Below, piece by piece: positions 7,381 to 57,700 of a stretch of DNA of 64,000 bases. How positions within the stretch are numbered: position 1 is the stretch's first letter; every line of letters begins with the position of its first letter. The stretch is from Tachypleus tridentatus (Eukaryota > Arthropoda > Merostomata > Xiphosura > Limulidae), in contig NC_134834.1 in the NCBI RefSeq assembly GCF_004210375.1, forward strand, positions 13,997,857 through 14,061,856. Direction: 5' to 3'. The position numbers were made by a program, and so were the translations under genes. A model generated the notes under the pieces. The model was not told the origin of the DNA and did no database searches. It saw only the letters and a program-made list of their open reading frames with translations.

Positions 7381-7640
7381 GCCTGGCACGGCCAGGTGGT
7401 TAAGGCAATCGACTCTTAATCTGAAGGTCGCTGGTTCGAATCCCCGCCGCACCAAACATGCCCGCCCTTTCAACCGTGGGGTCGTTATAATGTGAAGGTC
7501 AATCCCATTATCCGTTGGTAAAAGAGTAGCCCAAGAGTTGGCGGTGGGTAGTGATGATTAGCTGCCTTCCCTCTAGTTTTACACTACTAAATTAGGGACG
7601 CTTTGCGCGAAATTCAAAAAACAAACAAATAAATAAAAAT
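7381..7640 (+). mobile_element. tRNA-derived SINE, near full length, plus orientation
   Basis: The A-box-like GGCCAGGTGGTTAAGG and the B box GCTGGTTCGAATCCC lead into the shared body (GGTAAAAGAGTAGCCCAAGA) and the CGCGAAATTCAAAAAACAAA tail. This is the clearest copy for defining element orientation: promoter first, A/T-rich tail last. Confidence 0.88.
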
Positions 7641-9400: not shown

Positions 9401-9404
9401 GTAT

Positions 9405-9670
9405 TAATTATTGTACGTTCTTTCTTTATTTTGTTTATTATTGTAGGTCTATTCTGTATTTTGTTTATTACTGAAAGTTCACGCTGTATTTTATTCATTA
9501 TTGTAGGTTTACATTGATTTTGTTTATTATTGTAACTTCTCGGTGTATTTTATTCATTATTATAGGTTCACGCTGTATTTTATATATTGTTGTAGGTTTA
9601 CACTGTATATTGTTTATTATTGTAACTTCTCGGTGTATTTTATTCATTATTGTAAGTTTGTATTGTTTAA
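9405..9670. repeat. Degenerate minisatellite, ~32-33-bp unit
   Basis: About eight divergent copies built on TTTATTATTGTAGGTTCACG followed by CTGTATTTT. The short open frames over it (Ile/Phe/Cys-rich) follow from the repeat. Confidence 0.8.
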
Positions 9671-10575
9671 AATTCATTACATCTTTTAAGTGTCAGTTTA
9701 ATTAAATTACTTGAACAATTTGTTTTAAGATATTAACATTTCATTAGCATATTTCTATCATGGTCCCATTTTATTTTTATATGATAATCCAAATATCTGA
9801 GATATTCTGTTTGTTGTCTTTAACTTTTGAAACAACGAAACGACTGCAATTTATCAAACATAAAACTAGTGTGTCGCGTCATGTCAGGGTTGATTTATCA
9901 AAATAGGAGAAATGAAAACCAAAATGCAATTATCAGATAAAACAGTTCGATTACTGCCTGCCCATTATGATTTTAGAGAGAGGAGTGCCATGAAACCTTA
10001 TAAGTGTTGTGAGTGTTGGTATAACAAGCCTAGTGTAAAGATGTAGTGTAGGATCACCTAGCCTAGAACAAAGTTAATAAAATTTACCATGAAGGTAAAA
10101 ATATCGATTCAATTTAAACTTAAAGCGTTTCTGAATTAATCTATTTTCTATTATATCCCCAAAATATAGAATAAAAAACAAGGACAAAAAACAGTGGGTC
10201 TTATCGTTATGTTAATATTCTAGTAACCTTACTAGAGTTTACTTTACAAATGTTTTTATTAAATAAATTTATATACACGTGAATTTCACTGACTGTATCA
10301 CCTAGACCAGGATTACCAGGATTTATCGATCTAACCCAAATTACCTGCAAGAAAACATAGCTTAAATTCCGTGTCTGAAAATGATACAAAGAAGAACACT
10401 CGAGTGATGCAAATGAATACAACTGTTAGTGTCCTGTCGGTCGCTGCTGGTATTACAAATAATCTTTAATTGTAGTAAAGGTGTAGTTTCCACGATGATT
10501 ATGTTAAATACGTTTTGACTTTTCATTTATGGTCAGTGAAGAACTAATTCAGAATCTTCATAAAACTGTACTAAC
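9671..10575. other. Unannotated AT-rich stretch
   Basis: No gene, RNA or repeat is supported. Confidence 0.35.
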
Positions 10576-11110
10576 TGGAAATTATTTTAACTTTGTCAGT
10601 AACGTTAACTGAATAATATTTTAACTTTGTCAGTAACGTTAACTGAATAATATTTTAACTTTGTCAGTAACGTTAACTGAAGAATATTTTAACTTTGTCA
10701 GTAACATTAACTGAAGAATATTTTAACTTTGTTAGTAACGTTAACTCAAGAATATTTTAAGTTTGTTAGTAACGTTAACTGAATAATATTTTAACTTTGT
10801 TAGTAACGTTAACTGAATAATATTTTAACTTTGTTAGTAACGTTAACTGAAGAATATTTTAACTTTGTTAGTAACGTTAACTGAAGAATATTTTAACTTT
10901 GTCAGTAACGTTAACTGAAGAATATTTTAACTTTGTTAGTAACGTTAACTGAATAATATTTTAACTTTGTTAGTAACGTTAACTGAAGAATATTTTAACT
11001 TTGTTAGTAACGTTAACTGAAGAATATTTTAACTTTGTCAGTAACGTTAACTGAAGAATATTTTAACTTTGTTAGTAACGTTAACTGAATAATATTTTAA
11101 GTTTGTTAGA
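10576..11110. repeat. Minisatellite, 34-bp unit
   Basis: About 16 copies of a 34-bp unit with core GTTAGTAACGTTAACTGAAG. The variable positions are GTTAGT/GTCAGT and GAAGAA/GAATAA. The unit contains overlapping palindromes, TAACGTTA and GTTAAC. Confidence 0.93.
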
Positions 11111-32200: not shown

Positions 32201-35200
32201 CCTTCAGTTCTCCAATGTTAACAAATTATAAGCCCAAACTACATTCTATAGTTCCAATACCCAGTTCAGTTTTAATGTTTACTTACAGTAATGTTAATTT
32301 TATACTATTTACAATTAATATGTTCTTTTAAAACATTGTTTGGATTATGTACTAGAAATACAGTTGAAACTGAATCTGATAAACACATTAATTACTTTTG
32401 TCTTTTTTTGTTTGATTTTTATAATTTTTATTGCTCAGCTGTTCTTTTAACATGTTAATTATGATGCAGGTCTTTGATTATGGCACTGCGATAATGGATA
32501 CCATAGACATGCACTATCCAGTGAACGAGATGGTGTGTAATTCAAAAATCAGGTTAGTTCAGTTGTGGATATGTAATTTAAAAATCGGACCAGTTCCGTT
32601 ATGGATGTGTAATTTAAAAATCGGGTCAGTTCCGTTGTGGATGTGTAATTTAAAAACCGGGTCAGTTCCGTTGTGGATGTGTAATTAAAAAATCGGGTCA
32701 GTTCCGTTGTGGATGTGTAATTTAAAAATTGGGCCAGTTCCGTTGTGGATGTGTAATTTAAAAATCGGGCCAGTTCCGTTGTGGATGTGTAATTTAAAAA
32801 TCGGGCCAGTTCCGTTGTGGATGTGTAATTTAAAAATCGGGCCAGTTCCGTTGTGGATGTGCAATTCAAAAATCGGGCCAGTTCCGTTGTGGATGTGTAA
32901 TTTAAAAATCGGGCCAGTTCCGTTGTGGATGTGTAATTTAAAAATCGGGCCAGTTCCGTTGTGGATGTGTAATTTAAAAATCGGGCCAGTTCCGTTGTGG
33001 ATGTGTAATTTAAAAATCGGGCCAGTTCCGTTGTGGATGTGTAATTTAAAAATTGGGCCAGTTCCGTTGTGGATGTGTAATTTAAAAATTGGGCCAGTTC
33101 CGTTGTGGATGTGTAATTTAAAAATCGGGTCAGTTCCGTTGTGGATGTGCAATTCAAAAATCGGGCCAGTTCCGCTGTGGATTGAATGTAGATGATTTTA
33201 TGATTCTTAAATTGTTCGTTTCTTCCTGTACACAAACATGATTTAAAAACATGTATGAGCTTTAAACAGTCAATTTAAAATTTTGGTAATAAATATAACC
33301 TTTTGAACAAAAAATTAAAAACAGGCTTAATATGAAAGAAATGTTTAGGATTTATATCATTTGTTTCATTGGTTTACATAATTTTTACTACAATACAGAA
33401 AGATACTACAGAGATCCCTGCATATAGTAATTACAAAGTATTATACTTTTCTGTGTAATTTTAATGATTTTATGATTAATTCATTTTTAACCACATGTAT
33501 TTAAACCATTCTTTTTAGTGGTATTCCAATTTGATCCGAGTTTTTTTTTTGTCAGATAGTTAGCACTAGATCAAACAATATATTTGATTGTTATTTTGCA
33601 CAAAATAGATGTCACGGTAAAAATTAACATCACAAGTGACATGATATTCAGTAATGACTCACGGCAGTCTCGAAGTTTAAGATGTTAATAGTTTATATGT
33701 TAAAATATATAAAGTTTGTTTTCCTAAACTGGTCACTTTATTTATTAACTAGAATAATTTATTGAGTGAAATATTTTTACTTGTGTGCTTTAACAATTTG
33801 GGTAGAGAAACGTACACTATCTCGCATGTGCACTAACAAACATGCTTTAACTGAACTATATAACAAGGACTAGATCCATGCTTTGGCAAATACTAAACTT
33901 CTCTAGTGGGTAAATAATCCAGAAAAAAGTGATGTTTTTATCAAACTGATAGAAAACTTATGTTGGGGTTTACGTGTAGAAGCTATTATGTAGTGTGTAT
34001 ACAGAAATAGACCTGTTTCTTTGAGTACTGAGTGCAGTGTTTTCAGTGAGTAATAAGAAAACTTGTATGTTCAAGCTGTATCAGCTGGAGTTCGTATCAC
34101 AAAGGGATGTTAGCAAGCAGTGATTATGAGGGAACTGTCACCATCTGGGACGCTTTCACCGGTCAGAAGATACGAAACTTTCAGGTATGGTCACATCGTG
34201 AAATGTTGATATAGAATCTAACATCAAGGTTTGTAGGCCTGATTTACACTTTATATTTTGGTACCATTATCTTCATAGAGCTTTCTACATTTACCATTAA
34301 AAGCAATGTTTTATTGTCTGATTCACCTTTTAGTGAAGGACACATCTTAATAATATTATTCAAGTGTTAAAGTTTGTATTTTTCTGACAATAATTGTAAT
34401 AAACAGTTGCACTGATAGGTAGTTAAATTATTATTATAAAAAAAAATTTGTTTTAATTGGGTTTAAAGATAAATTAACCATGATGATAGAGTAGTAGGAT
34501 GTGACTTAGTTAATTAAACAAATAAATATACAATCATAACTCTTAACTATTGGGTTATAATGGACTGTGTATTAGTGTGGTGAATTGGTTTTTATGTGGG
34601 TATAATCCAAAACAAGTCTTGAAATTAGTTTCCACGACTGAGAAACAAATAATGCCAGTATTTATTAATTTCTATTTTTAAGCACACTTCTTTAAAACAT
34701 TATTGTAATTAATTCATAGTGTTGTTTTAAGGCATGGGTTAGCCCTGTAATAGAACTCTGGATTTTAGGGCTGTTAAACTGGATTTAAAACCTGTGTATC
34801 TCAAAATCTTCCCTGCACTTTAAGTGTTGGTGCATTATAAGGGTGACAGTCAATCTTTTAAAGTAATTAATGGGGTGTTACTGACTAGCTGCCTTCCCTC
34901 TGTTCAGTAGCTCAAAAACAGAGATAGCTTTACTACACAAAACACAGTATTTTGTTCAAGTGCTTGTGTATATAGTAAAATATGAAGAACACAGTGTGTG
35001 TACGTTTGTCAGAAAAATTATCCAAAGACCTGGGGAAGTCATTTTGGTGTTTGTGTCACATAGTGGTATAGTTTTATATTAGTCAGTCAATTTTTTTTGC
35101 TATTTTGTGATAGTTTTTTAATTCATTGTTTTAATAACCAGTTCAGTCCCAGTTGTGTTATAAACAAAAATGCAACAACAACTCGTTGTCTTACACGTTG

Positions 35201-38200
35201 TTTTTCCTCCTTACTTGGACAGTTGTCTGAAATATATTTTAAGAGAAATATGGTCACTTTGTTGTATACATAAACATGCATATCTTAACATGACATGTAA
35301 AGAAACTTTGTATCAACTGATCTCAAACTTTTGTCATTTTACATGTGCATCTAGGAACACGAGAAACGTTGCTGGAGTGTTGATTTCAACCGTGTTGACA
35401 CCAAACTAGTTGCATCGGGATCTGATGATTCTAAAGGTATGTACTACATCCTGTGTTTATAAGTGTTGATATAATGTTACAACATGGTGGTTATTCAGGT
35501 CATCTTTATAACTTTTTAGAAGCTGAAATCTGACAGCATAGTTTGCCATATTTTTGAAAGGCTCGCTATCTTTACTTTGATTTATTATATGAAGGAAAAC
35601 TAACTTGGAGCTGATAGACTGGTATTACTGTATTCAAAAGTTTGGTTATTACAGTGTGAAACACAGTTACTCCCTTCTTGACATTTTTAGATGTCCACCT
35701 GTACCTCTTGAACTTTTTATATTCAGTTTATTTTGTTGTGTTCTTTTGAATAAAAATCAGATATGATGTTTTAATGTTACTGCATGTGTTACTGAACTTT
35801 TACAACAATTAAATGATGTTATGTTCTTGGACCTTATTGGCTTTTCTATTCCATTAAAATGATATGTCAACTAGTGTTATAGAACTGCCTTTTATCCATT
35901 ATAAGAGTGCTTTTGGAAATCAATTTTTTAATGACCAGTATAAGTTGGTTATGACCGGTGTCTCAAGTACGTGTAACTGTTAAGTTTTTTTGTTTTGATT
36001 TTTTAAAAGAAGACAAGTGTGCCATACTGTGACAGTGCAGTTTGCACCAATAATGTTGCAAAGAAAACAACATGCATTCCATTTTGAGGCCGTGTATGCA
36101 TTATACAAGTAGCAATTGAATCCCACTTTTTGAACAGAGCACCCAAAAGTTGGTGGTGTTGATTGGTTATCTTTAATTTATAACAAGAGTTGGTGGTGTT
36201 GATTTGTTATCTTTTAATTTATAACAGGAGTTGGTGGTGTTGATTTGTTATCTTTTAATTTATAACAGGAGTTGGTGGTGTTGATTTGTTATCTTTTGAT
36301 TTATAAAATTAGGGACAGTTGATGCTATTAACCTTTGAGAAGTTTTGCACAAAATTCATCATGTACCAACGACTTTTTTTTTTTTTTTTTTTGAAAGAGA
36401 AAATTCTTTGATTAAAAAACGTTTTAAATGCAAAAGAAATGCCAAGTACTTTTGTTGTGCAAACGTTTCTGTGAAGACTTGTACTGGAAAAGATCCAATC
36501 TCTAAAAAAAAAACGTGTTTATCGTTCCGTAGTTAAGCTTTGGTCAACTGGAATGGATCATTCTGTAACATCACTGGAGACAAAGGCCAACGTGTGTTGT
36601 GTCAAGTTTAACCCTGAAAGCAGATACCATCTGGCATTTGGCTCGGCTGGTTAGTAAGAATTACACTGGCTAACATTTCTTATCTATATTTTATACAATG
36701 GAAGCTCTTCAATGAGACCAATCACAACATATTAAAACAGATTTTTGACCAATCACAACATATTCACATAATTTTTGACCAGTCATAAGTTTCAGTAATG
36801 TAGTATATTCATAATTGTTTTATAAGCAGTGCAAGTTAGGTGTTTACAATAGAATAATAATAAAACTTCACTATTTTAGAGAAACAACCAGCGATTGAAA
36901 AAATATATGTAAATGATATAAAATGTGTGATTTTTGTATAGAGATGTCAACTTATTTTATTCTAATTAATTTCAAAATATTTGGTCTTATTAAAGATTTT
37001 CCACTGCATTTCGAGTTATAGAAGTTTTATTTTCTTTAATGATTACAGTATGGACATTTTATTTTATTTATTTATATCTTTAAAATGATATGCAGTCCAA
37101 AAATCAAATGTAGTAATTCATGTCTTCACTCTTTGTTCAGTGCTTGCATGTTTGTGTCATGTGACATGTTTTTAGCCAATCATAATTCCCAGTTTGTTTT
37201 TATTCTCTCTGTTCTGCTTGCTTATGGGTAATAGAAGAGGACATTGACAGCTCCAGACTTGGTACTTGTCTATTACTGTCACCTTAATTTTATCTCTACT
37301 AAAGTGTTAACAATCAGAATTTATCCGTAAACCTCCTTCGTAGACTTTAAAAACTTTTCGTAATCTTAGCCCGTTGTTCGTTAAATTTCTTTACGTTCAA
37401 ACTGGAAACTCGCAAAATTATTTTTCTCCTGATCTCCGAAAAACTAAAATTTTAAATGTTTTTCTTTTCATTATGATTTAGATCTTTAATTACTTGTGTT
37501 GGTTACATAAAATATTTTGATAAATCTGATGCAGTATTCTTTCCCAGTCTTTCTATTATCAATACCATAAACATGTTTTCTAGGTTAATCTATCCCAAAC
37601 TGTTTAAAAAAAAAAAAAAGTGAACACTTATTTTTATCAATAAATGGTTTTGAAATATATGTTAAAAGTAATGAAATCAAATCTAAGAGAATTTCGTTTG
37701 TGTTTGATTTTGTAGAACATAAAATGTGGTTTTTACACTTGTCAGAAATCTTTCAAGTCATTAAAAATATATTTTTGTCACAGTGAATGATTTTATAAGT
37801 CAGATATTTAATTAATGTACCAGTTTTAGTGTATGTAGAAATAATTTTGGAGGGGAGGGAGAAGGGGCTCACCCCCTTTATATTTTATATCTGGACTTGG
37901 TTGAAAGATTTGGAAATGTGACTTTAAATCTGTGATGGTGAAAGTGTTGACAAAAGAAATCTCGCATAATTTGATATTTTGTATTTCATTTAAAGTATGT
38001 ATAATGAATTACAAAATATCAAATTATGTGAGAGTTCTTTTGTCAACATTTAAAGTATGTATAACAATAATAACTTCTATTATTATATATATAAAAACGG
38101 CTCGTTTGGGTTGAGAAAATATTTTACGTAGAGGAGCGAACAACGTTTCGAACTTCTTCGGTCATTGTCAGGTTAATGAAGGTCAAAACGTTGTTCGCTC

Positions 38201-41200
38201 CTCTACGTAAAATATTTTCTCGACCCAAACGAGCCGTTTTTACATATATATTTCTCTACAAGTGGGTTTTCTCGACATCACTGATTATTGATTCACTATT
38301 ATTAATTGTTAATAGGAAATTAACTTCATTATAAAAGAATGAGTGTAGTATGAAATAAGGATTAAAACACTTTAGATTCCTTTGTTAGTCCTAGTTTGGA
38401 TGTTTATTTTATATGTATATAACATTATTCATATACATGTTATATTTGTATCATTTTCTCACAACAAAAGTTAGATTCTTCTATTATGTAACTTTCTATA
38501 CTAATCAAAGTAAAGAGAAAATGTTAGTCATATTAAATCTAGGTACTTTGTCGCGTATTTAAGACATGTTTCGTTTCAGATCACAGCGTGCATTATTACG
38601 ACCTTAGAAACATTAAACAGCCCTTGGGAACGTTCCGTGGACATAAAAAAGCTGTTTCGTACGTGAAGTTTTTGAATACCGAAGAAATTGTATCGGCGTA
38701 AGTGGTTTAGATTTTTGGAAGTGTCGTTTAAATTGTAATATTACATCCCCACAGTGCTGTGTTATTAATGAGGGCCAACAATTTTAAAGTTAATTACTTT
38801 AGATAAAGCTGTGGTGATTGGATGTTGGTCTTTGTCATGGTTATCAACCTTTACACCCAAGTCTGATTACTAATTTTGATCCTATTTTTTTTCAGCTGTT
38901 AATCAATCAGCTGCCATGTTTAGATACGTCATACGAACTATTTTCATAGTGGCAGAGGCCGAGATATAATATCCTACATCTTCACAGAAAGGCTGCTATG
39001 GGTTGCTTGCAGTTAAGCACAAAGTTACACAATGGGCTATCTGTTGTCTGCCCATCACAGGTATTGAAACCAGGTTTTTAGTGGTTTGTGTCTGTAGACG
39101 TACTGCTGTGCCACAGGCTGCTATGGTATCCACTTGTTTAGGATCTTGCACCTTTTAGGGGGTGTATCTAATGTTGTTTACTTCTATACTAGGTTGGCTG
39201 CTTTATGTTATCAGTTAGGTGAATGCAAGAAGTGTCTTTCTATCTTTTTCTCGTGTGCGGTTCTGAACCCATTATTCTAGCATTATTCATGTTGTAAGGT
39301 GGTTGTCTTCTCTGTCATAAATGTTATAAAAAGTGTTGTGTTTCATAATTCTAACTTTAGTTTTTCTGTTCCTGGTTAAGTGTCCACTTGTTGTTGGTAT
39401 TCATGTTAGAAGTGGTTTGTGTTAAAATACAAGGTTTTGAGTTATACGCTGGTCTGGTGTAGTCATTAACTCTTTCACTACAAGCTTGGTCAAATCAGAT
39501 GACTTCATAACCCCAGGTTGACCTCCGTAGTTTCCATACTATTACTTGTATGTTTTGTGTATCTTTGACACATGTTGCAAGCTTCGAGCAGTCATTGAGA
39601 GTGATATTTAGAGGTAACAATCACAATTTTTAATGTGGTATTCTCACCAAAGATTTCTCCACTAATACATGGATTCAAAGTGTTGCCTGCTCCAACTGCA
39701 AAGTGAGTTTCATGTTAAGATTAAAAATACTTTTCTTTGTTTGAAAAATATCCTAAAATTAAATTTTAGCATAGAATGTCGTTTAATCTATCCTATAGTT
39801 CTACAGATAGCCAGTTGAAATTTGAACCTGAATGTTGTTTGATCTATCCTATAGTTCTACAGACAGCCAGTTGAAATTTGAACCTGAATGTTGTTTGATC
39901 TATCCTATAGTTCTACAGACAGCCAGTTTAAATTTGAACCTGAATGTTGTTTGCTTCCATCCTATAGTTCTACAGATAGCCAGTTTAAATTTGAACCTGA
40001 ATGTTGTTTGCTTCTATCCTATAGTTCTACAGACAGCCAGTTTAAATTTGAACCTGAATGTTGTTTGCTTCTATCCTATAGTTCTACAGATAGCCAGTTT
40101 AAATTTGAACCTGAATGTTGTTTGCTTCTCTCCTATAGTTCTACAGACAGCCAGTTTAAATTTGAACCTGAATGTTGTTTGATCTATCCTATAGTTCTAC
40201 AGACAGCCAGTTTAAATTTGAACCTGAATGTTGTTTGATCTATCCTATAGTTCTACAGATAGCCAGTTGAAATGTGAACTTGAATGTTGTTTATTCTATA
40301 GTTCTACAGATAGCCAGTTGAAATTATGGAACATCAACAAACCCCACTGTTTGCGTTCTTTCAAGGGTCACATAAACGAGAAGAATTTTGTTGGTTTAGC
40401 CACTGACGGTGACTATGTTGCTTGTGGTGAGTTCTAGATCTGTTTAACACACCACATCCCTACATTTCTAGGATGTGACGTAACTCTTGTCGAATTTCAT
40501 TTCAAAAATACAACTAGTTGACGAAATTATTTAACTTCACAGGAAGTTTCCTAAATGCATGTAATTCCAGGAAAATAAACTTTGTAATATCGTTTCTTTC
40601 TTTTTACTAAAAAATTATTATTTATTCTAATTATTTCATTGAGACTGAATAATTCACATGCAAGGTGATATTCATTTTAAGGATAAAATTGTTTTATCAC
40701 ATTACAGTTCATGAATTTCATTTGTATAAACCTCTAAGACCTTCTGAATTACTATCATGTTATTTTCTCTACCACATTATTAACTGTAGGCTATTATCAT
40801 TAATGTACAGTTTATACAAGGAATAGAAATATGTACATTTTAAACTATCCATCAAAGAATCGTAAAATTTCTGCTATGGGTAATATTTCTAATGTGTTGT
40901 CGTTTTTAATATTTTATATTCATTTATTATTCATCTTAACACGCATCAATGAGTATTTTAGAGTTGAATTTTAAGTTATATTAAAAGTTTATTAAATCTT
41001 TCAAATATGCACCTTAAAACCTAAATACAACGTAACAGTATCTAACTAGCAATAAAACCGTAATGTGTACAGTGTGTTAGTTGAAAATTTGAAATTTGGT
41101 CCATTTTATGGTTTTACTTTCCAGGTATATTCCACAACAGAAACTTGCATTGTAATTTATTAATGATATGATACTTCACCCTGACATGTTTTTTTGTATG

Positions 41201-44200
41201 TGATTGGTTTATTTCAGTGTTATTACACCCCCTTTTTCGTTTTTTGTCAGAGGGGGGGGGGCTGTATAATTGTATCAAATGGGAAAAATTATATAACTTT
41301 ACATACTTAAAAATGGCTGGTATGGGTAGAGAAAGCTCTTTGTAGAGGAGCGAACAACATTTCGACCTTTTTTGGTCATAGTGAACCTGGTGATAACCGA
41401 AGAACGTTGAAACATTGTTCGCTCCTCTACTAGTCTTTCCTCTACCCGTACCAGCCATTTTTATATAATTTTCTCTGCAAGTGGGTTTTCTTGTCATCAC
41501 AGATACTTATAGAACTTTCTTTTAAGACATTTTGTTATTTTGAGATAAAATGTCAAACCAAGTTCTCTAAAATATGCAGTACAAACTGGAGGAATTATAA
41601 TTGTTATGTCAGATAGATAACTTTATTTTCAATTATAGGATTCACTAAAGAGGTAAAGATTATTACAGAAAGTCTTTTTAACAGGAAGTGAAAACAATTC
41701 CTTGTACATATACTACAAAGGCATGTCCAAGCAAGTGTTAACTTTCAAGTTTGACACCGTGCGAAATGTGCTGGTAAGTTTGGATTTATTCATCATGGTG
41801 TGTTTTACACCCTATCACACCCTATATGTAGTTGAATGGGATGGTCGTGGACCTGGGAAAGGTTGGGAACTTAAGGGGTTGTAAAAAAAAAAGGAACGTT
41901 TTGTGATTACCCCAAAGCTACTCCCCTCCATTTTTATCATAACATGCACGTGTGAACGTAGACACTGTTGTTTAACTGTCAGTTATTTGTGTATTATAAC
42001 TTAACCATGACTAGTAACTCTCTAATTCATTACATTTTGATGTCTATTAACTTTTATGTAATAAAAAAAAAATTCAATGTCTTAATATCTCCCATCATTG
42101 CTAAGTCTCTGTTTTGAAGGTGTATTTCTGTAGCGTCATAATCTGAAGCTTTTGTTTTACCCTTTGCAACCAGATTAAATAATGATTAGGATACTGAGCA
42201 AACTTCCACATTTATGTGTATTGAATGATCAAGTGTGTAAGTCTGGAAAAACTTTTTATTTTGAAAATTGGGGGTGTGTGAAAAGAATTAAACCATCTGA
42301 TTGCTACTTTACATTGTTTGTTATTTTATTTAATTTCACATAAAGCTACACGAGGGCTATCTGCACTAGCAGTCCCTAATTTAGCAGTATAAGACTAGAG
42401 GGATACTCTTGGGCTACTTTTTTATCAACTAATAGTGGAATTGACTGTCACATTATAATGCCTTCACAGCTGAAAGGGCGAGCATGTTTGATGCGACAGG
42501 GATTCAAACCCTGGACTCTCAGATTACGAGTCGAACTCTTTAACCCACCTGGCCATGCCAGGTCTATGCTATGTTGTATAACAATATTTTGAAATAAGTT
42601 TTAAGACTCAGCTTTTAAATACAGAATGAATCCCATTAATTTCTGCACAAGCAAGATAAACACCTTTCCTGTGTCTAGCATAGTTCAACATTGGTAGTTT
42701 CATAGAGAACCAAAGTACAATTTATTCCTAAACATACAAGTATTGCATTATCTTTTGAATAATGTAATGAATTAGCACATCAGTCATGAAACAAAGGGAC
42801 TTTCTAAGTTGTATGATTTTGTCAAAACCAGCTGAACCTTTCTGTTCTACTCCTCTGTTTGTTTGAAGGCTGGCACGGCCTGGAGGTCAAGGCACTTGAC
42901 CTCTCGATTTTCAGTTCAAATACCACCACCAAACATGCTCACTCTATCAGCTGTTATAAATGTATGGTCAATCCTATATTTAATTAGAATAACTTGAGTT
43001 TGCAGTAGGTATTATTCATGAAATCCTTCCAAGCAGTCGGTCACTTCGACATTAGAAACAGCTAGTGCAAATAACTCGTGTAAAATTCCATAGAGAAAAA
43101 ACAAACTATTTGAATAAATTCGTGTGTATTCTCGAACATTTTTCTGGAATTCTCTGTATCTTCCATTCAGTTTTGAGCAAACTCATGCTACCTTGTAGCT
43201 ACAAATAAAAATAAAATTGATAATTTTAAGTTGACTGGTAATATAGAAGATTTAGAACATTATTGGAGATTGAGAAAGTTGGTGAACCAGGAAATTGGGA
43301 CATTGAAAAAGATGCATGACAAAATGACTGAAGAGTTAAATATTAACAGTTTGGATTTTTTTAAAAGTGAATTAAGATTTCATATAATGTTATGATGGGG
43401 GTATGACTCTTGTGGGATGATGAAGGAAGGCTTGTATCTGATGGGTTGTTAAATTCTTTTTCTTCAGTTTTTACAAATGAAGACTTAAGTACTATTTCTC
43501 ATCTTGAGTAATTGATTAATGAAAACAAAGTTGAAGATAATTCAATAAATTTTGAGCTTTGGAAAATAAAATTGGCAAGTGTTTTTTAAAGAATAAAGCT
43601 TCTGTCAGATAATGTTTCCTCAAGGGATTTAAGGAAAGTCAAGGACTTTATGTGAGCCACTTGCCACAATTTTTGGGAAGTCCTTGAACTGTGGCAGGTA
43701 CCAACAGATTGGAAATTAGCTAATGTTGTTTCTGTCTTTAAGGGAGGTAATAGAAATTGTCCCAATAATTATAGCCCTATTGTTTTTGAGTTTTGGAAAG
43801 TTTAATAATAATGATAAAAAAAAAAACTTTGCAAAGTTTAGAATTTTATTGGATAGTCAGTATTGGTTTCCCTGAAGACAAATCTTGATGTACGAGTCTT
43901 TTGGCATTCTTTGAAAATGGTACTGGATTTTCAGAAAGCAAGTGACAAGATTTGTAAAGAAACGCATCTCTATAAGTGTGGAGGATGAGGTAACTAATTG
44001 GATAGAAGAGTGGCTTGAGGGGGGAGCAGAGGGCTCTTATAAGTAGAGTTCAGTCAAACTGGATTAATGTTTTTGATTTTACAGTAATGACATAGATCAA
44101 GGAGTGGCCAACAAATTCTGTAAATGTACTGATGATATTAAGGTCTTGGGTGTTGATGGCTGTGAAGAGGATGTTACTGATTTACAAAAGGATTTAGATC

Positions 44201-47200
44201 ATTTATTGAGTTGGACAAATAAATGGTGGATGGATTTTAATTATAATAAATACAAGATACTGCATGTGGGTTATTACTAAATTATGTTTTGGATATGGAT
44301 AACCTTAATGTCCCAAAATAAAAGGACCTTGGTGTATTAGATGATCAGTCTTTTAAGCCATCCAAGTAGTGTGCTCTTGTCAGTGGTATGGCAAATAGTA
44401 TTTTAGGTTGTATCTACAGAAATATTGAATACAAGTCTAAAGAGGTTATTTAACTGGTTAGGCCACATTTAGAATATTGTTCAGTCTTGGGTTCCTTACC
44501 TTAAAGACATTGAATTCTTCAAAGGGTTACTAAAATGTTTGCCATATAAAGAGAGGATGAAATCTTCATATTGTTTTCTCTTAAAAAGAAAGAGTTGGAA
44601 TCTGATTGAAATGTCTAAGATTGTAAAAGGAATTAATACTGTTGATGAATCAACACAAGTATAGATGTAGGTCAGGTAGAAGCTGTCTTCAGCTGAGACA
44701 GTTTTTTATATTTTAAATAAGAGTGGTTGGTTTATGGAATGGATTACCTTCAGATATTGTGGAGACAGTGAATTTGACTGAGTTAAAAACAAAGCTTGAT
44801 AGGTTTATGAGTGATAAGGCTTTAATAGTTTTTAACAGTTTTAGTTTGGGTTAAAGGATGGGAAAGCCAACATGGACCAGTAGGTCCCTGAACATTATTT
44901 TGATTGGTTAACAGATCTCATATCACGTTTTAAAATATACCATTTTAGATCACTGATTTACACACTTTTCTGAGTTCAAAATGCCTCGTGGACTATTTTT
45001 ATTTGTAAGAGAAGTATAATAAAAATATTTTAACCAAAAATTGTGTTTCTTCAGAAGCTTCAGCCTTTTAGGTTTACCAACTCTTAAACCAGTTGTGATT
45101 CTTGTAGTTGTATTAATGCTAAATGTGTGTCCTTTCCAATTCTTAAAGTAATTAGGGTAACTTGTATATTTGTGTGATAATATCTGTCAGTTTAAAGTAT
45201 TGCTTGTGGGGATTATACAGGGTGTTTGGAAAGTCACTTTGCACTTGTATGTGATTACAAAACTGCACAGTGACTTTCCGAACACCATGTATTTTTATAT
45301 GGTGTCAACTTTTTAGGTTTTCTTTTTCTCCATCAAATTAATGTTAAGTGTTGAAAAATTTACTGGAATGAATCAGAATAGTTTATATTTTTATTATTTT
45401 AACTAAATAATACACTTTGTGTTAAACCTTCCATTACTGAGTTTAAAGAAAGATAATATTTTATTTATACCATGTCTTGGTAATTTTTGTGCCTAAATTA
45501 TCTTTAAACAAAGATTAAATAATGTGTGTCTAGAACTGAATAGTTAGAAGAATATTCTGAATAATCCTCAGTCATTAATCCAATTAAACTATAACGATTG
45601 AACAGTTAGAATAATATTCTGATTAATCCTCAGTCATTAATCCAATTAAACTCCCACATAGGACTTGGACAGATTGAATAATATAAAAATAAGTGTACAA
45701 AATAATTTGACAAGTTGATCATTGTTATGAGTTGTGACAATTTGCATAAACTAAACAATTGTGAAAAATTGTAATTTTAATATTTTGATTACATGAATAG
45801 TAATAATCTAAAGCAGTAATAATTGTAAACTAACTGTATGCTTTTATCCAACACTAACTGATGCTCATAGATAATTTGTAAATTGAATTAACTGTCCAGC
45901 TCAACTTATGGAAAGAAAGTTACTTTGTGAAGACGGACAAACTGGCGTTTGACAGGGAGAACGTTACTTTGTGAAGACGGACAAACTGGCGTTTGATAGC
46001 GAGAACGTTACTTTGTGAAGACGGACAAACTGGCGTTTGACAGCGAGAACGTTACTTTGTGAAGACGGACAAACTGGCGTTTGACAGCGAGAACGTTACT
46101 TTGTGAAGACGGACAAACTGGCGTTTGACAGCGAGAACGTTACTTTGTGAAGACGGACAAACTGGCGTTTGACAGCGAGAACGTTACTTTGTGAAGACGG
46201 ACAAACTGGCGTTTGACAGCGAGAACGTTACTTTGTGAAGACGGACAAACTGGCGTTTGACAGCGAGAACGTTACTTTGTGAAGACGGACAAACTGGCGT
46301 TTGACAGCGAGAACGTTACTTTGTGAAGACGGACAAACTGGCGTTTGACAGCGAGAACGTTACTTTGTGAAGACGGACAAACTGGCGTTTGACAGCGAGA
46401 ACGTTACTTTGTGAAGACGGACAAACTGGCGTTTGACAGGGAGAACGTTACTTTGTGAAGACGGACAAACTGGCGTTTGACAGCGAGAACGTTACTTTGT
46501 CACATCTGATACAAGTCACTGCTTCATGTTACATTGTCCTACTAACATAATTTGTTTCCTGTTCTAAAGGAGAAAGACAGAAAGGATGAAGAGACAAATG
46601 AATTTGTTAGCGCCGTCTGTTGGAGAATGGTAAGTGATTTTTACAGTTGTTTTATTGAAATCCATTAGTTGCTTGTAATTAAACGTTCGTAAGAGCTAAT
46701 TTTGCATTAGTTTTCTGTTATTAATGGAGTTCTCTCTAAATCCTTGTATGATGCAACCCAGTACAGTACAGTAAATCATGTTTTTCAAAAAATAACCCGT
46801 TCATTTTGGTGGGTATCTCGTGCATGAGTTATTTCACGTAGAATACAGGTTTCTGTCTCGTGGGTTATACGAACATTAAGGGTGTGTTTGTACTTTATGT
46901 ATCAAGAAATACTGTCATAATATTTGGTTCTTGCCAAGTTATGTGATAATTATTGGTATATACATATAGACTGTTTCCTTCAACATTACAGGGAACTAAC
47001 GTTGTTGTAGCAGCTAACAGTCAAGGAAACATAAAAGTAAGTTTGTCTCATTTGTATTGGAGTCGTACAAGTGACTCAGATTTGTTACATAACGCTGGAT
47101 ACTTTGATCTTAAAACAAGTGAAATAAAACTTTGAAAACAAAACGTTTTTTTCTCACTCGTAGGTTCAGTTTTTAGATATTGTGTCGTACATTTTGATGA

Positions 47201-47809: not shown

Positions 47810-47901
47810 AGTTAGAGAAATTAGGAGTGAAACTGAATCGTCTCTAGGTATTAGTACTTAACACAGTACAAACTTGTAGATACTTGGCCATCTATATTGT
47901 C

Positions 47902-47907
47902 AATAAA
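47902..47907 (+). terminator. Probable COP1 polyadenylation signal
   Basis: AATAAA 93 bases after the stop codon. A second possible signal (AAATAAAAATC) lies near 47,948. Confidence 0.5.
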
Positions 47908-47989
47908 TCCTTATTAACCATGTATAAACATTAGTTGTTTTTTTTTAAATAAAAATCAAAATAAAAACTGATTCAGTTCTAACAGCAGT

Positions 47990-50877
47990 CATGAGAATTG
48001 AATATCTGTTTCATTAAGATACTATACCCTAAACCTTCACAATTGTCTGTTAAATAAAAATACTTTTTAATGAAATACCAAGAATATTTATTTAACATTT
48101 TTATCTCAAGCTATTCATTACAAAACTACAGATCGTAACACACAACAAAAGGCCAGATAGTTTTCTACAAAAATTAAGCATACATTTTAACTTATATAAA
48201 TGGTCCACATCAATCCAGTGTTTCATCATAAATAATAAACCAAACATAAATAAATAGTTTGGAAGTTAGCTTTCCAATAATTGTCTTGCAGGCATATATG
48301 ACAAAGATATTTTGAATGTGCATAAACATATAAACAATTACCACAGTGCTAATAATATTTTGATTTTATAAGACTCGAGCAAAATGAATTACAGTATCTC
48401 ATCTAGATGCTAACTTATGGGCAAAGAATATATAAAACTGGACAATTAGGTACCAGACACAATGCTTCGAGTGTCATCTTTGCCTGATGAAATACTGTGG
48501 TGTGGTGACCAATGCTTACTGAGAACAGTTATCTATAGACAACCCTGTTTTGATAATAAATTTAACACAGTGACAACTATAATAATAATAAAAAACAAAT
48601 ATATGGATCATTCCTTGAAGTAGTTGTAATTCTGGTCACATCTATACTGTTCTGATTCAGGTAGAAAGCAACCCAGGGTTTCCTTATTTAAAAGACTAGT
48701 ATAAATATAACAAATCACACGTAATTAGAATAAATTCGACACACACTGGACCCTAGTTTGAAAAGATTAAACTGATGATTAAGCTACCACATGGTTTAAA
48801 CATCTGTTTAATTCAGAATTAGCTTGTACAGTGTGCATTACTGAAATAGCAGGTCAGTCCAAGAGCCTCTATTCACCTAAACAAGTATTACTGGTTATGA
48901 GAATCCACTGTGCTAGTTTACCATCTGATTATTTCACTGTAACCCAAGTCACTTTAGGTTTCATCAGTAATACCCAGACTTGTAAACCTACAGAGGGTTG
49001 TTCGTGATTTGGTTTAACAATATGCATATTCAACCCATACTACAATTGGTGCCTTTCTAAAATTAGCCACTTCTGTAATTACAGAGGTTTCTGATACAAA
49101 GCTCTGTTATTCTGCTGTTATTAGTAAATATTGTATTACTGGAGAAAAGTTAGAAATCTAAAGCACAGTGGACCATTACAGTTAAATTAGGGACTTCACT
49201 TGACATTGTAACTAGGATGATTCACACAGACAAAAGTCTACAAATAGCCAGTTTTTATCACACTTCTCCAACAAGCAGTATCTGGCATGTGACAAATGAA
49301 AGTATATTGTGATGCTGGAAGCACCCATTGGGTTCTGCAAACACGTTTATGGTCAAAAGCCAAGTATTTGGACAGGCAACAAAAACACTACAGTTAAGTT
49401 TACATATTTTTATGCTGAAATCACTACAAAGCAAGGAAATACTATGCCCTGTTTGAATTCATAAAAATTAAGACATCCAGCAAAATATACACAAATGTGC
49501 CATTTCCTGTGAAAATTGGTACAAGTACAAAGAGAATTACTGGTGTAATATTACCAGACCTCAGTAGGCTGCTCAACAAACTACCAGAAGTCACACTCTA
49601 AATACAGCCAACAGAAAATCTTCAACAGGGATCTTTAAAAAGGAAATGGGATAGCACTGGAACCTCCAGCAAAACCAGTACCATGACCTAGAATGTCAAA
49701 AGGTTTAGGTATTCCAACGTTTGTCATAATTATAAGATAGACACCACTCTGTGTCTAATTTACACATACAGCAGAAGCATTCTATATCACCAATACATTT
49801 GCCATAAGACACACTGGAATGACTTATTTGCACTTTTGGAAATTCTTATACAAATTACAGTGAAAACTGTTACATACCAAACACTGAGCATTGTGTTACA
49901 GACACTACAGTAGTGGTGTTGTGATATATTTTGTTTTTTATACCTTCTTCTTACAAGGTTCATCTATATTTGAATTTGTTAAAATTGACCAATGTTAGTT
50001 TTTTCCTGTCTAAGTGATGCAATATAAATGCACAGTCATAATTAATGACCACATAAGAAATATTCCAGACAGCCTGGATTCACTGAAACACATGGAAAAT
50101 ATAGTTTCTATAAGCTTTTCACTTACAAAACAACAGTACATTTTTCACTGTTCCTGAAGATTAATACAAAGTATCATTTAATAGAATGATAAATAACCTC
50201 AGATGTTTTCATGTCACTTAAAGCTAATTCTCCTAATGGGATTAGCGTTAAAATTTGGGTTCATTCCCTGTAATGGGCAAAGTGTGAAACAACCCAGTCT
50301 GAATGCTTGTAAACTACACATTTAAGCTGGACTTGAAAGGTCACGGGGTACATCTAAGAAACAAGTCCATTGCAAAGTTCTGACATGACTTCCTACACCT
50401 TTCCAGCAAATAATGGTAATTTCTCTCCAGAAACATATTAATGAATTGATGGCCCATTGAACTGCACTGTAAAATATTGTCATCATATCTTTGTTTTCAG
50501 TAACATCATCTTTTGAAACAAGTATTACCTTAACTTATTGATACTTTAAGGGGTTGCTGTTTTGGTCTAAGTTATTGCATTAAATAGCATTTGAAACTGT
50601 AAACAAAGTCACTCCACACAACCTGATGCATAAAATTCACACGAGCATCTTCTCGGAATGTATTATAAACATTCGGAAGATTTTAAACCGCTGCCATGAA
50701 AATAAAAACTAACAAGTTACCAGCCACCTAGTGACAAGTATAAAAAGTCACAGTAAATTATTTGAGAAGAAAAAAATTATATACATCACAATATGTTATT
50801 ACTGGGAAAAAACAACAACTTTTAATACAGATCACTTTAGTTGGTATGCATCTTTGGATTGAAACTCAACCATGTGG
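47990..50877. other. Region between COP1 and RABEPK, likely RABEPK 3'UTR in part
   Basis: Unique AT-rich sequence without exons on either strand. A reverse-strand AATAAA (TTTATT at about 48,087) would end RABEPK very close to the COP1 end and imply a 3.5-kb 3'UTR. That is a guess from one signal. Confidence 0.3.
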
Positions 50878-50878
50878 T

Positions 50879-51141
50879 GCTTGTTTGTTTTTTAATTTTG
50901 TGCAAAGTTATTAGAGGGCTATCTGTGCTAGCCATCCCTAATTCAGTCGTGTAAGACTAGAGGGAAACCAGCTAGTCATCACTACCAACTCTTGAGCTAC
51001 TCTTTTACCAACGAATAGTGAGATTGGCCGTCACTTTATAACACCTCCATGACTGAAAGAGTGAGCACGTTTGGTGTGACAGGGATTTAAACCCGCAACC
51101 CTTGGATTATGAGTCGAGTGCTTTCTCCACCTGGCCGTGTT
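50879..51141 (-). mobile_element. tRNA-derived SINE, first family
   Basis: TTTTGTGCAAAGTTATTAGA, then CTCTTTTACCAACGAATAGT and GGGATTTAAACCCGCAACCC. Near full length. Confidence 0.82.
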
Positions 51142-51610
51142 AATTACATCTTACACTTAAACCTCAAACAGTTGATGTTCTGTCTGCCAATCAATAACTT
51201 TCAGTTGTTGTAATTAATCTGATGCAAGGGCAGACATTTTTTCTGCACAGAAATTCTCTTTGTGCAGGACAGATTCCTAAAAAATGCATCTGCTCCAAAT
51301 TCTAATTTTGTGCCACACTTTTCCATTACACTCATTTCAAGAGACTAAGTTTTATGACTCCAATACAGTAAGTGACAGTAAATTTAACATTCAGTTTAGC
51401 TTAAAAGTTTTTAGTTGTCTAAAAATATCTATATATTTCAGAAATAAAATAAAATAAAAAAGACAGATCAGAGTTGACTGTAAACATTTTGACATTGTGG
51501 CAGCTGTTAACTGGACATCTTAATTATCCAAGTGTCATACAAAATTACAGGTAAAGCTTAAATACATGAGCATTGTATTATGATAATGTTAAATGAATGA
51601 GCTGTGAATT

Positions 51611-51726
51611 CTACAGTGGAAAGACCCAAGTATCGTCAAATATTTCACCATTTGTATCCATGCCTCCATGTACTAAAATACACTGATTGTTCTTGTTCTC
51701 ATCTTGTCCATCAGTTTCATGATTTC
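51611..51726 (-). CDS. RABEPK: RABEPK terminal exon
   Basis: Acceptor TTAATTAACTAG; the frame gives CILVHGGMDTNGEIFDDTWV, then FPL and TAG. Matches the final GGMNTEGEIYDD blade. Enters with two bases that complete Gly. Confidence 0.92.
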
Positions 51727-54700
51727 CTAGTTAATTAGAAGAAAAATTAATATTTTAAAAATTCACAACCTTGTTAAAAACTATACAATACTTATTATAG
51801 GTAAGATTTTATTGAGTTATACAACACTTATTATAGGCAAGATGTTATGGAGTTACACAATACTTATTGTAGGCAAGATGTTATTGAGTTACACAATACT
51901 TATTGTAGGTAAGATTTTATTGAGTTACACAATACTTATTGTAGGCAAGGTGTTATTGAGTTACACAATACTTATAGGTAAGCTTTTATTGAGTTACACA
52001 ATACTTATTGTAGGTAAGATTTTATTGAGTTACACAATACTTATTATAGGTAAGATTTTATTGAGTTATACAATACTTATTGTAGGTAAGATTTTATTGA
52101 GTTATACAACACTTATTATAGGTAAGATTTATTGAGTTATACAATACTTATTATAGGTAAGATTTATTGAGTTATACAATACTTATTATAGGTAAGATTG
52201 TATTGAGTTACACAATACTTATTATAGGTAAGATTTTATTGAGTTACACAATACTTATTATAGGTAAGATTTATTGAGTTATACAATACTTATTGTAGGT
52301 AAGATTTATTGAGTTACACAATACTTATTATAGGTAAGATTTTATTGAGTTACACAATGCTTATTATAGGTAAGATTTATTGAGTTACACAATGCTTATT
52401 ATAGGCAAGATGTTATTGAGTTACACAATACTTATTATAGGCAAGATGTTATTGAGTTACACAATACTTATTATAGGTAAGATTTTATTGAGTTACACAA
52501 TACTTATTGTAGGCAAGATGTTATTGAGTTACACAATACTTATAGGCAAGATGTTATTGAGTTACACAATACTTATAGGTAAGATTTTATTGAGTTACAC
52601 AATACTTATTGTAGGTAAGATTTTATTGAGTTATACAATACTTATTGTAGGTAAGATTTTATTGAGTTATACAATACTTATTGTAGGTAAGATTTTATTG
52701 AGTTATACAATACTTATTGTAGGTAAGATTTTATTGAGTTATACAATACTTATTGTAGGTAAGATTTTATTGAGTTACACAATACTTATTGTAGGTAAGA
52801 TTTTATTGAGTTATACAATACTTATTATAGGTAAGATTTTATTGAGTTACACAATACTTATTGTAGGTAAGATTTTATTGAGTCACACAATATTTATTGT
52901 AGGTAAGATTTTATTGAGTCACACAATATTTATTGTAGGTAAGATTTTATTGAGTCACACAATATTTATTGTAGGTAAGATTTTATTGAGTTACACAATA
53001 TTTATTGTAGGTAAGATTTTATTGAGTTACACAATATTTATTGTAGGTAAGATTTTATTGAGTTATACAATACTTATTGTAGGTAAGATTTTATTGACTT
53101 ACACAATACTTATTGTAGGCAAGATGTTATTGAGTTATACAATACTTATAGGTAAGATTTTATTGAGTTACACAATACTTATTGTAGGTAAGATGTTATT
53201 GAGTTACACAATACTTATTATAGGTAAGATTTTATTGAGTTATACAATACTTATTATAGGTAAGATTTATTGAGTTATACAATACTTATTGTAGGTAAGA
53301 TTTATTGAGTTATACAATACTTATTATAGGTAATATTGTATTGAGTTATACAATACTTATTGTAGGTAAGATTTTATTGAGTTACACAATACTTATTATA
53401 GGTAAGATTTATTGAGTTACACAATACTTATTATAGGTAAGATTTTATTGAGTTACACAATACTTATTGTAGGTAAGATTTTATTGAGTTACACAATACT
53501 TATTATAGGTAAGATTGTATTGAGTTACACAATACTTATTATAGGTAAGATTTTATTGAGTTACACAATACTTATTATAGGTAAGATTTTATTGAGTTAC
53601 ACAATACTTATTATATGTAAGATTTATTGAGTTAAATTTATTGGTTTAGCTATCATTTTGTTTATTTGCCATTATACCAATGATGAAATAAAGATTGTTC
53701 AATCTGACACTAAAAACATGAAAACTTATTACACATGAATTTCTGTTGTTGTTTCTATAACAGTAGTCATACTAAAGGTTTAATTGACTGTCGTGATGCT
53801 ATTAAACACAAAGTTCAGAACCATGAAACTATACTTTCTGGCTTATTGTAGTGATGGTATTAAACACAAAGTTCAGAACCATTAAACTATACTTTCTGGC
53901 TTATTGTAAGAATAACATTATCCCAATGTAAATATTAAGTGATTCTAAAACATGTTGTATAATCATATTCATAGAAACAGTCTTTCAAATTACTGATGGA
54001 ATGTGTGGTAAATCAGCCTGCAAGTGTTAAAACTACATACACAGTAATGTAGTATTTTGTCACACACAGAATGACAAACCATTACCTTTCAACACTCATC
54101 ACAATGAATCTACGTGAATATAGGTTTCACATTTTGTCATTAACCATTAGATATGTTGCCAGCTACAAGAGCCCCATCATATGTTACCAAGTAATGTAGC
54201 ATTACCTTTGTAAGCTAACAAGATGTTTAAACATTCTATCTCATAATTATTTTAAACAGCTATTATACTAATTACTCATGACACAGGAGCTAGGCCCACT
54301 CTGTCTTCTCCCTTTCTATAGATAAGATTACTTGTATACTGTTGTCAAGTTTCTTTAACTCTTTGTTTCTGAGCATTCAATATATCGGAACGAGCTACTG
54401 ATACATCAGCTTGTTGGTCTTGTTACATTTTATGAGTCATTCCACATTCTGAATGTTTTACAGATTCAATGTAAAACTATGACTACTTCTGTTAGAGAAA
54501 CACCTGCAATCTGAGCTCCAATGTGGTAATAAAAAGTTGCATTATGGGGGTTAACATGAGTGTTTTGAACCTCTAGCATAAATATATAAATATCTACAGA
54601 TTTAAAGAAATCATAGTAAAGAAAACTGGGCTATTTTATTATTTGTAAGTGACAGTTTGGAGAAATATTAATAAATAGATGTGGAAACTGACCTGTTGAC

Positions 54701-57700
54701 AATTCCACAAGACAAATTCCAAAATCCAGACGTCCACGAGGGACTTGATCTCCACAGTTAATTTTGAACCATGTCTCCAAACCTTCAGGGATAAAGAAAT
54801 ACCAAGCTACATCATGCTGTTCAGACTATAGAAATACACAATAAACAAACTGAAACATCTTTAGAAAGAGCATGAAAACCTTCAGTTACACAAGTTGTAA
54901 TTCCTTCCATTTAATATCTGTACCAAAACTTCCCTTCAAGTGCTATTAACAAAACAATATGCAAGTTTTCTAACATAACATTTTTATGCATAACTGTACT
55001 GTAGATTTTGCATATTACAAACCCTTATTATAGGAGGTGTTTTAAAAACATGACAATTCGAGAAAGTACAAAAACAAAGTTCTGGTGTTTGGCAAAATAT
55101 TTTTCATGGAAAACTACATATGCATCTTCATTGTTAATAACCCAACATTCTGAACTATATATAAATGACCTGGATAATGTATGATTTACATACATTATTA
55201 TTTATTATTTTAAAGAAAAATATTACATGACGCTTATACAAGATCTCTCGTGTACTCTTAAACAGTTCTCTCTACGGCAATTGGAAAGAAAGATGGCTGA
55301 AAAATCACAAAACCTTTCTTTAACTCCCACAATGTGACACTTCCGATCATTCAGAAATATAATAACTGTGTACAGTTAAAGCCATTTTCAAAATCTCGAG
55401 ACAGATTTGATTTGGTGTTATTACTAAACATAAAACAAGGTACTTGTATCGATTTGTACAGGTCCGTTACAATCTAGGAGACAGATTTGATTTGGTGTTA
55501 TTACTACACATAAAACAAGGTACTTGTATCGTATTTGTACAGGTCCGTTACAATCTCGGGAGACAGATTTGATTTGGTGTTATTACTACACATAAAACAA
55601 GGTACTTGTATCGTATTTGTACAGGTTTGTTACAATCTAGGGAGACAGATTTGATTTGGTGTTATTACTAAACATAAAACAAGGTACTTGTATCGTATTT
55701 GTACAGGTCCGTTACAATCTCAGGAGACAGATTTGATTTGGTGTTGTTACTAAACATAAAACAAGGTACTTGTATCGTATTTGTACAGGTCCGTTACAAT
55801 CTCAGGAGACAGATTTGATTTGGTGTTGTTACTACACATAAAACAAGGTACTTGTATCGTATTTGTACAGGTCCATTACAATCTCGGGAGACAGATTTGA
55901 TTTGGTGTTATTACTACACATAAAACAAGGTACTTGTATCGTATTTGTACAGGTTCGTTACAATCTAGGGAGACAGATTTGATTTGGTGTTATTACTAAA
56001 CATAAAACAAGGTACTTGTATCGTATTTGTACAGGTCCATTACAATCTAGGGAGACAGATTTGATTTGGTGTTATTACTACACATAAAACAAGGTACTTG
56101 TATCGTATTTGTACAGGTCCGTTACAACTCCTTCACTGGTAAGTCCACCAAACACGTAGAAGTCCTTCTGTACTGCAACTACACCATGAGCAGCTCGTCC
56201 GCAAGGAATGCACCCTTTAGGATCGAGTCTTTTCCACCTGCACGTAGAAAGGTCGAGAACATGGAGGTCATCGTAAAAAGTATTTCCTGATGTACCCCCA
56301 TGGACGTACAACTGGTCTGCCATAGCTACCATTACGTGACCTAGTCTAGCAGGAGGACAGATGCTACTGACACTAAGTTTGTTCCACGAGTAAGATGGAA
56401 GATGGAAGACGTATACATCTCTGTAGGAGTTTAAAAAAAACATTTTGTTTTATATAATTTTCAAGAGCAGAAAAAGAATAATAACAACCACATTTTCACA
56501 CACTAATTCACTAAAAATTCATATATATATAACAAGTGAATAATTTAAAGATACTTTGATATTAAAAGTCAGAAATCTGCATTTCGAAATGCTCTTCCAA
56601 CACTGATGAAAAATCTCACTGGCTGGTTAGAAATGTTCTTCCTGAGAGATATACAAAATAAATAATGACTACACTACAGAGTAAGAGGTGCAAGTGTCAA
56701 AGGTTAGAATTATTATTATTTTTAAGCCTACATACTTAAACTTCATAAGTTGTTTTGGTTTAAATAACAGGTGTTCTATAATTTAACAATGTAGGTTTTA
56801 AAAATATTTTTTTTCTTCTATCACATAAGCATTTGTTTACAAAGTGAAAATAAAACCTTACTTAGATCAAATTATTATCTTGTTTACCTAAACAAACATT
56901 TTTTATTATTATGTTTGTTTAAAAAAATTAAAAACAAACTTAAGAAAAGGAAAGAACACCAATTGTATTTGACCTCATTAAAAAGAAGTCCGAGATTTTC
57001 ATATGTTTCCTTCAAGTAAACCAAATGCGTAAGAGAAACAGATGCATACATGTTACCATTGCAAAGGAGAACAAACTTTTAGACATCTTTGGAGAAACCA
57101 ACAAACAATTTCCATTCACTTGGTTCACAAACTGCAGCTTACAGCATTGGTTTTAATTCAGCAAAATAGTTGTAATGAACCTTCTTGTGAAACATATGGT
57201 ATTAACTCTTTCTCACAATTTCTGTACCAGTAAAATGTTGTTCCTAGAGAAAGTAAGTTATTAGCCCAAAGTCTAGACTCCAAAATCTCTGAAGAATCAT
57301 TTGGAAAGCTTAAATCTCTCACCAAGTTATAAAGTTCACCTTGTGTGAAAAGTTGTGGTTCGCCAGACATGTCAGGTTGAAAACAATCCCAGAAGGTACA
57401 GGTACATCAGGTCTTATAACAGATTGAACGTTCAGGTCAGAAATTAACTTTTTATTTCAAGTGTTGTAAACTTGCACATCACATGATTAAACAAAAAGCA
57501 GTCATCACTGTATTTTCTAGGCTCACACCAAACCATTTGATTTCCAAAAGATAAAAGATTTTTCCCTACCTTTAGACCATCGTCTCAACTATTTGACACG
57601 AACAGTGCAACAGTAAAACCATCACTGAACTGTGTTACATGTCCTAGTTTATAGAATTAGGCTTAGTTAATAAATCAAAATTTCACTTACTTGTCCACCA

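Follow-up and report, generated by a model that had tools for sequence, protein, structure and literature searches.

Three minisatellites in a 64-kb stretch of the horseshoe crab Tachypleus tridentatus genome (C10:13,997,857-14,061,856; hereafter the window) were found to be built from units that span an exon-intron border. Two of them lie in the COP1 gene and one in a kelch gene that we take to be RABEPK, a provisional name accompanied by a Kelch domain match. Both kinds of exon end are affected, with two arrays on the donor side and one on the acceptor side, and in all three the genuine exon edge is the outermost copy; the splice sites in the remaining copies are referred to below as decoys. 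With a probability of about 0.72, the arrays are “mirage” minisatellites, that is, products of duplications that accidentally spanned exon edges and were tolerated in a minisatellite-rich locus.

The donor-side array of COP1 was placed by Tandem Repeats Finder (TRF) at 32534 to 33182 on the forward strand and comprised 18 copies of a 36-bp unit made up of the final 19 coding bases of an exon, the donor, and 17 intron bases. The true donor of this COP1 coding exon (32470 to 32552, forward strand) reads AAAATCAG/GTTAGT, the slash marking the border between 32552 and 32553, and sits in copy 1 of the array, which begins 19 bases before the exon ends. Among the 17 decoys of the window, GT was kept in 4, the rest having GC (12 decoys) or AC (1 decoy); in an inverted second copy of the locus (copy B, described below), it was kept in 3 of 14. 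Simulated use of decoys 4 to 17 of the window led to a stop, whereas decoys 1 to 3, the second and third of which have GT, read through without one. Compared with the consensus over its 36 sites, the first copy carried 6 differences and the last copy 4, against 0 to 2 in the other 16 copies; this divergence of the end copies, measured in the COP1 donor array only, is as expected for boundary copies that lie outside homogenization.

The acceptor-side array of COP1 (39759 to 40325, forward strand; 10.1 copies by TRF) has a unit of 56/57 bp, which consists of an intron end with a TATAG acceptor followed by 24 coding bases from the start of the exon downstream. That exon, beginning TTCTACAGATAGCC, extends from 40302 to 40426 on the forward strand, and its true acceptor, TATAG/TTCTACAG at the border between 40301 and 40302, is found in the last copy of the array, which ends 24 bases into the exon. 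The TATAG/TTCTA border was intact in all nine decoys of the window; in copy B, 19 of at least 20 decoys matched a slightly looser form of the pattern, and at least one unit had lost it. The nearest decoy (40251 to 40301, forward strand), 51 bp upstream of the true acceptor, was the sole exception among decoys that otherwise all hit a stop on simulated use: in both genomic copies, its use would be in frame and stop-free and would add 17 amino acids.

The third array, on the reverse strand at 55398 to 56127, comprised 8.9 copies (TRF) of an 82-bp unit containing the last 30 coding bases of a RABEPK-like kelch exon, its donor, and intron sequence. This exon (56098 to 56420, reverse strand) ends ..VVTDLYKYDT, and its true donor, GATACAA/GTACCT at the border between 56098 and 56097, lies in the 5'-most, highest-coordinate copy. 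The GATACAA/GTACCTTG border (GATACAA/GT) was intact in every decoy, with 8 of 8 in the window and 5 of 5 in copy B, and simulated use of each window decoy ran into a stop within a few codons. From the array donor, frame is kept into the following RABEPK-like exon (54693 to 54782, reverse strand), which contains SLETWFKINCGDQVPRGRLDF, and the frame is open across the junction inside a Pfam Kelch domain match that covers residues 1-170 of 174. The spacing of the junction presumably resembles that of human RABEPK. When the 14 correctly placed donors were scored with a weight matrix, CAA/GTACCT ranked lowest, and this weak donor is repeated unchanged in every copy of the 82-bp array.

The exon edges of COP1 were verified by comparison with the human protein. 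The spliced COP1 translation aligned to human COP1 (5igq) over 281 residues without a gap at either array junction; its one gap, four residues long, falls close to the C terminus and clear of the two junctions. No new intron formed by tandem duplication was seen in the sequence model, in which both junctions agree with the human protein. No ohnolog of COP1 was found for a further comparison: 16 of 19 genomic matches were the window and copy B and the other three (20 to 35% identity) were WD-repeat-like.

An earlier sequence-only reading of the window had described three arrays with units of 36, 56/57, and 82 bp on both strands, each including a coding edge and its splice site and each with the genuine edge as the terminal copy, among about a dozen arrays in all. 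TRF recovered all three, with the COP1 arrays on the forward strand and the RABEPK array on the reverse strand; the units hold 19, 24, and 30 coding bases, and the true edge is outermost in copy B as well. After overlapping TRF rows were merged, the window held 17 non-microsatellite tandem arrays, of which 13 had three or more copies of a unit 20 bp or longer. Three of the 17 reach a known coding exon.

Copy B lies inverted at a distance of about 235 kb (C10:14,240,898-14,297,469) and repeats the COP1-RABEPK locus, corresponding to window positions 14,431 to about 68,927 with about 98% identity; the long alignments between the two are mostly 97 to 98.6% identical (window 14.4 to 68.9 kb). It could represent either a haplotig placed wrongly in the assembly or a genuine inverted duplication. 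The exon-bearing terminal copies are the same in the window and in copy B, internal variants differ in order, and the edge arrays differ in length, with 18 and 15 copies for the COP1 donor, 10.1 and 20.6 for the COP1 acceptor, and 8.9 and 6.0 for RABEPK, in the window and copy B, respectively. Arrays that include no exon edge gave corresponding counts of 13.3 and 126 (array at 45,914), 101 and 27 (26,481), 3.9 and 18 (36,148), and 52 and 55 (51,785). Copy numbers thus vary in the edge arrays and in most ordinary arrays alike, indicating that the edge arrays change length as their neighbors do.

Two of these neighboring arrays have features of their own. The 44-bp array at 45,914-46,500, with 13 copies against 126 in copy B, ends 69 bp before the COP1 exon at 46570 and is a case of extreme length instability near an exon, with the edge not included. 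The array at 51,785-53,634 (36 bp, 52 copies) contains the donor-like motif TATAG/GTAAGA in its unit, and no coding exon was found there; donor-like words therefore occur also in arrays without a known exon.

The favored explanation runs as follows. Both genes would have undergone short tandem duplications that by accident straddled an exon-intron border, with the new copy landing on the intron side. This would have left the reading frame and the outermost splice site unaffected, so that the duplication would have been nearly neutral, with splicing that ignores the decoys. The array would subsequently have lengthened and shortened like any minisatellite, by slippage or unequal exchange, its inner copies being homogenized while the outer, exon-bearing copy was held by selection on the protein. 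That three edges were struck in one window would be the work of chance in an unusually minisatellite-rich locus. Tolerance of arrays at exon edges, one of the options in the sequence-only reading, fits the finding that, at each of the three arrays, the window and copy B alike retain the coding exon and its working splice site despite their unequal copy numbers. The associated proposal that the decoys are buffered would apply only to the COP1 donor array, in which most decoys are dead (GT in 4 of 17); the acceptor and RABEPK decoys keep their splice sites, so decoy buffering is not general.

The frequency of such arrays elsewhere in the genome was assessed with TRF in a sample of 60 regions containing 63 exon matches, of which 43 were taken from 95 matches to PF00271 (helicase domain) and 20 from 125 matches to PF00069 (kinase domain). 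The matches were picked by hand from the hit tables on two criteria, short open frames and a lack of stops, and the choice preceded any view of the sequence; not every qualifying match was taken, and the 118 edges were called mechanically from the open frame plus AG or GT, some perhaps a few bases off. No array lay over any of the 118 sampled exon edges. The sampled regions held five arrays, each of about two copies and none touching the matched open frame; a further eight 2-kb stretches at round coordinates yielded one array with at least three copies. Overall, arrays with at least three copies numbered 13 in the 64-kb window versus 1 in the 72.8 kb sampled, making the window about 15-fold richer. 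A hunt for further exons by codon bias in the flanks returned open frames that for the most part resembled repeats, and it supplied no edge that could be used.

An edge-array rate equal to that of the window, 3 of 39, would give 0 of 118 with a probability of 8e-5, and the 95% upper bound on the sampled rate is 2.5%. The sample rules out a genome-wide edge rate like that of the window and is compatible with an edge bias confined to hot spots. At the array density of the window itself, the chance expectation for the sample is just 0.6 to 1.3, so that a zero is also predicted by chance. Moreover, the locus is a hot spot for minisatellites, unlike most of the sampled sequence, and the sample consequently bears little on array-dense loci.

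A second, genome-wide comparison was based on the donor word AGGTAAGT, for which sets of three copies 20 to 50 bases apart were counted over 2.17 Gb alongside five composition-matched control words. The donor word gave 3,409 tandem-triplet matches and the controls 1,419, 2,650, 7,706, 8,359, and 8,637, which places it fourth of six; these figures are matches rather than arrays and are inflated by long arrays. An apparent 2-fold excess over the mirror word (3,409 versus 1,419) was gone once the four further control words were included, and the first 100 listed mirror-word matches stemmed from two long arrays. Single-word counts were obtained for two of the six words, the donor word (92,449) and the mirror word (81,715). 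Among the matches listed for contig C1, clusters were scored by eye, each inverted pair counting as one; the donor word formed 3 clusters and one of the controls 8 in 30.4 Mb, numbers too few to decide. No donor-site preference is apparent in these counts, whose power is limited.

Several observations weigh against the favored explanation. Under a null in which units are placed uniformly outside exon interiors, and given the 39 splice edges of the 20 coding exons identified in the window, 0.20 to 0.43 edge-containing units are expected and 3 were observed, an excess of about 7- to 15-fold with P(≥3) = 0.0007-0.008; the ranges depend on the array set and the required overlap, and P is uncorrected for a pattern that was noticed before testing, in a window listed for standing out. 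Whole-window values were unchanged after a few-base adjustment of three exon donor ends (15.8, 17.6, and 62.8 kb), and any unfound exons would lift the expectation slightly. The contrast between 3 of 39 edges in the window and 0 of 118 elsewhere gives a Fisher p of 0.014, and the sample, in which arrays of every sort are scarce, gives little information on edge preference in array-dense loci. In 117.5 Mb of contig C1, 9 clusters of the donor word were counted, likewise by eye, among the matches listed versus 4 of a different control (p 0.27). Finally, neutrality with respect to splicing is a prediction from the DNA sequence.

These points bear on the proposal that duplications prefer exon-intron borders, either throughout the lineage or in certain contexts of transcription or chromatin (for example, through cotranscriptional nicks or R-loops), and so produce mirages recurrently. 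The low P under uniform placement speaks for it, as do the three different units at both exon ends and on two strands, the 9 versus 4 clusters on C1, and the several amphioxus genes with published mirages (PMC3087553 and PMC3902484). Yet the cluster difference is within chance and is reversed with another control, none of the sampled edges carried an array, donor-word triplets ranked fourth, and the pattern was picked post hoc. The sequence-only reading had called the three cases hard to credit to chance, which the window statistics support only as an uncorrected, post hoc figure, and had inferred, as one of two options, that duplication recurrently begins at exon borders, which finds no support outside the window. 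Such targeted seeding is therefore considered unlikely. A related form, in which duplications in the minisatellite-rich loci of this lineage start at exon-intron borders above chance and mirages, recurrent in an animal distant from amphioxus, stock splice sites for introns or isoforms (such as COP1 with 17 additional amino acids), is thought slightly less likely still.

It is also improbable, a little more so than either of these, that the arrays are functional, with decoys competing for spliceosome components and tuning COP1 or RABEPK output in a copy-number-dependent manner, by way of frameshift or stop isoforms or of the extended COP1. Such a role would accord with the intact state of all window acceptor decoys and all RABEPK donor decoys, with the in-frame, stop-free acceptor decoy shared by both genomic copies, with the read-through of the first three COP1 donor decoys, two of which have GT, and with the weakness of the RABEPK donor. 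Against it, simulated use leads to a stop for COP1 donor decoys 4 to 17, for every RABEPK decoy, and for every acceptor decoy but the nearest, GT is lost in most COP1 donor decoys, and copy number is unequal between the two genomic copies; in amphioxus, moreover, Adh3 data and reverse transcription-PCR of globins suggested regular splicing despite mirages (PMC3087553).

An assembly artefact, with repeats collapsed or falsely expanded at the edges, is highly improbable: the inverted second copy may be a misplaced haplotig, but copy B has the same arrays and terminal copies with another internal variant order and other copy numbers, differences that would not be produced by copying an error.

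Some features of the surrounding assembly were recorded in passing. A set of five arrays at 2,963-11,109 is encountered again at 69,446-77,234 (window numbering), in direct orientation about 66 kb apart and with identical or similar units at near-equal spacing, which suggests that the start of the window is directly duplicated. Pairs of matches in opposite orientation, 0.1 to 0.3 Mb apart and alike in unit or score, were seen at C1:6388023(+)/6610300(-), C1:9931xxx(-)/10200xxx(+), C4:7208095(-)/7496813(+), and C2:130295342(+)/130420481(-). This inverted-neighbor pattern may thus be recurrent in the assembly and may reflect unpurged haplotypes. The genome also contained 19 matches to the Coagulin family, which is characteristic of horseshoe crabs, in support of the lineage given in the sequence-only reading.

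Several known systems resemble the arrays described here. Intron gain by tandem genomic duplication (the Rogers model, named in PMC3087553, with a potato RdRp case in PMC4974935) likewise copies splice-site sequence within a gene, but the copies here lie inside an existing intron and make decoys, not a new intron. In human genes within segmental duplications, variable internal tandem repeats occur at exon-intron boundaries (PMC2812944). As in the horseshoe crab, units of minisatellite size overlap these boundaries and vary between copies; as described in that report, however, the human repeats were recognized by paralog comparison in primate segmental duplications and came with RNA-supported altered transcripts and new introns, whereas no new intron was seen in the horseshoe crab sequence model. 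Ordinary intronic minisatellites, or variable number tandem repeats, share unit size, homogenization, and the copy-number instability of neighbors in the same introns but have no known coding edge in their units.

The closest counterparts are the “mirage” minisatellites of amphioxus, described in Adh3 and the globin genes BflGb6 and BflGb9 (PMC3087553, 2010), to which PMC3902484 adds PGBD5 and troponin C (TnC). Literature found for horseshoe crabs and minisatellites concerned only other subjects. Within the literature covered, the name in this sense was found for amphioxus only, and the same structure may have been published under another name; in two nematode papers, “mirage” is the name of a transposon. 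As described in PMC3087553, the authentic edge flanks the amphioxus array, AG/GT signals are present in many units, and boundary copies escape homogenization. Units measure 10 to 72 bp in Adh3 and about 150 to 160 bp in the globins, and haplotypes differ in copy number (6 versus 3 in BflGb6). Somatic instability has been reported for Adh3 mirages, and mirages have been proposed as raw material for intron gain.

The horseshoe crab arrays agree with these in that the unit spans the exon-intron boundary, the edge is intact at the array end, both exon ends are affected, and boundary copies, here those of the COP1 donor array, lie outside homogenization. Splice signals are also kept, in 9 of 9 acceptor and 8 of 8 RABEPK decoys, although in only 4 of 17 COP1 donor decoys. 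Amphioxus mirages vary in length between haplotypes; here, copy number differs between two genomic copies of about 98% identity that may be alleles or an inverted duplication. The differences concern the phylum and the genes, the copy number (6 to 21 copies here against 3 to 6 in BflGb6), and splicing, which was suggested to be regular in amphioxus and is predicted to be so here. A genome-wide edge excess, if true, would implicate a mutational process linked to splice sites, of which the sample gives no sign. The three clear cases in one window, each found twice in the genome with unequal repeat numbers, show that mirages also arise in a protostome, and they offer ready test cases for how the spliceosome chooses one site among many identical ones. 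In the features that sequence could settle, the horseshoe crab arrays match the mirages of amphioxus, as a known kind of minisatellite in a new lineage.

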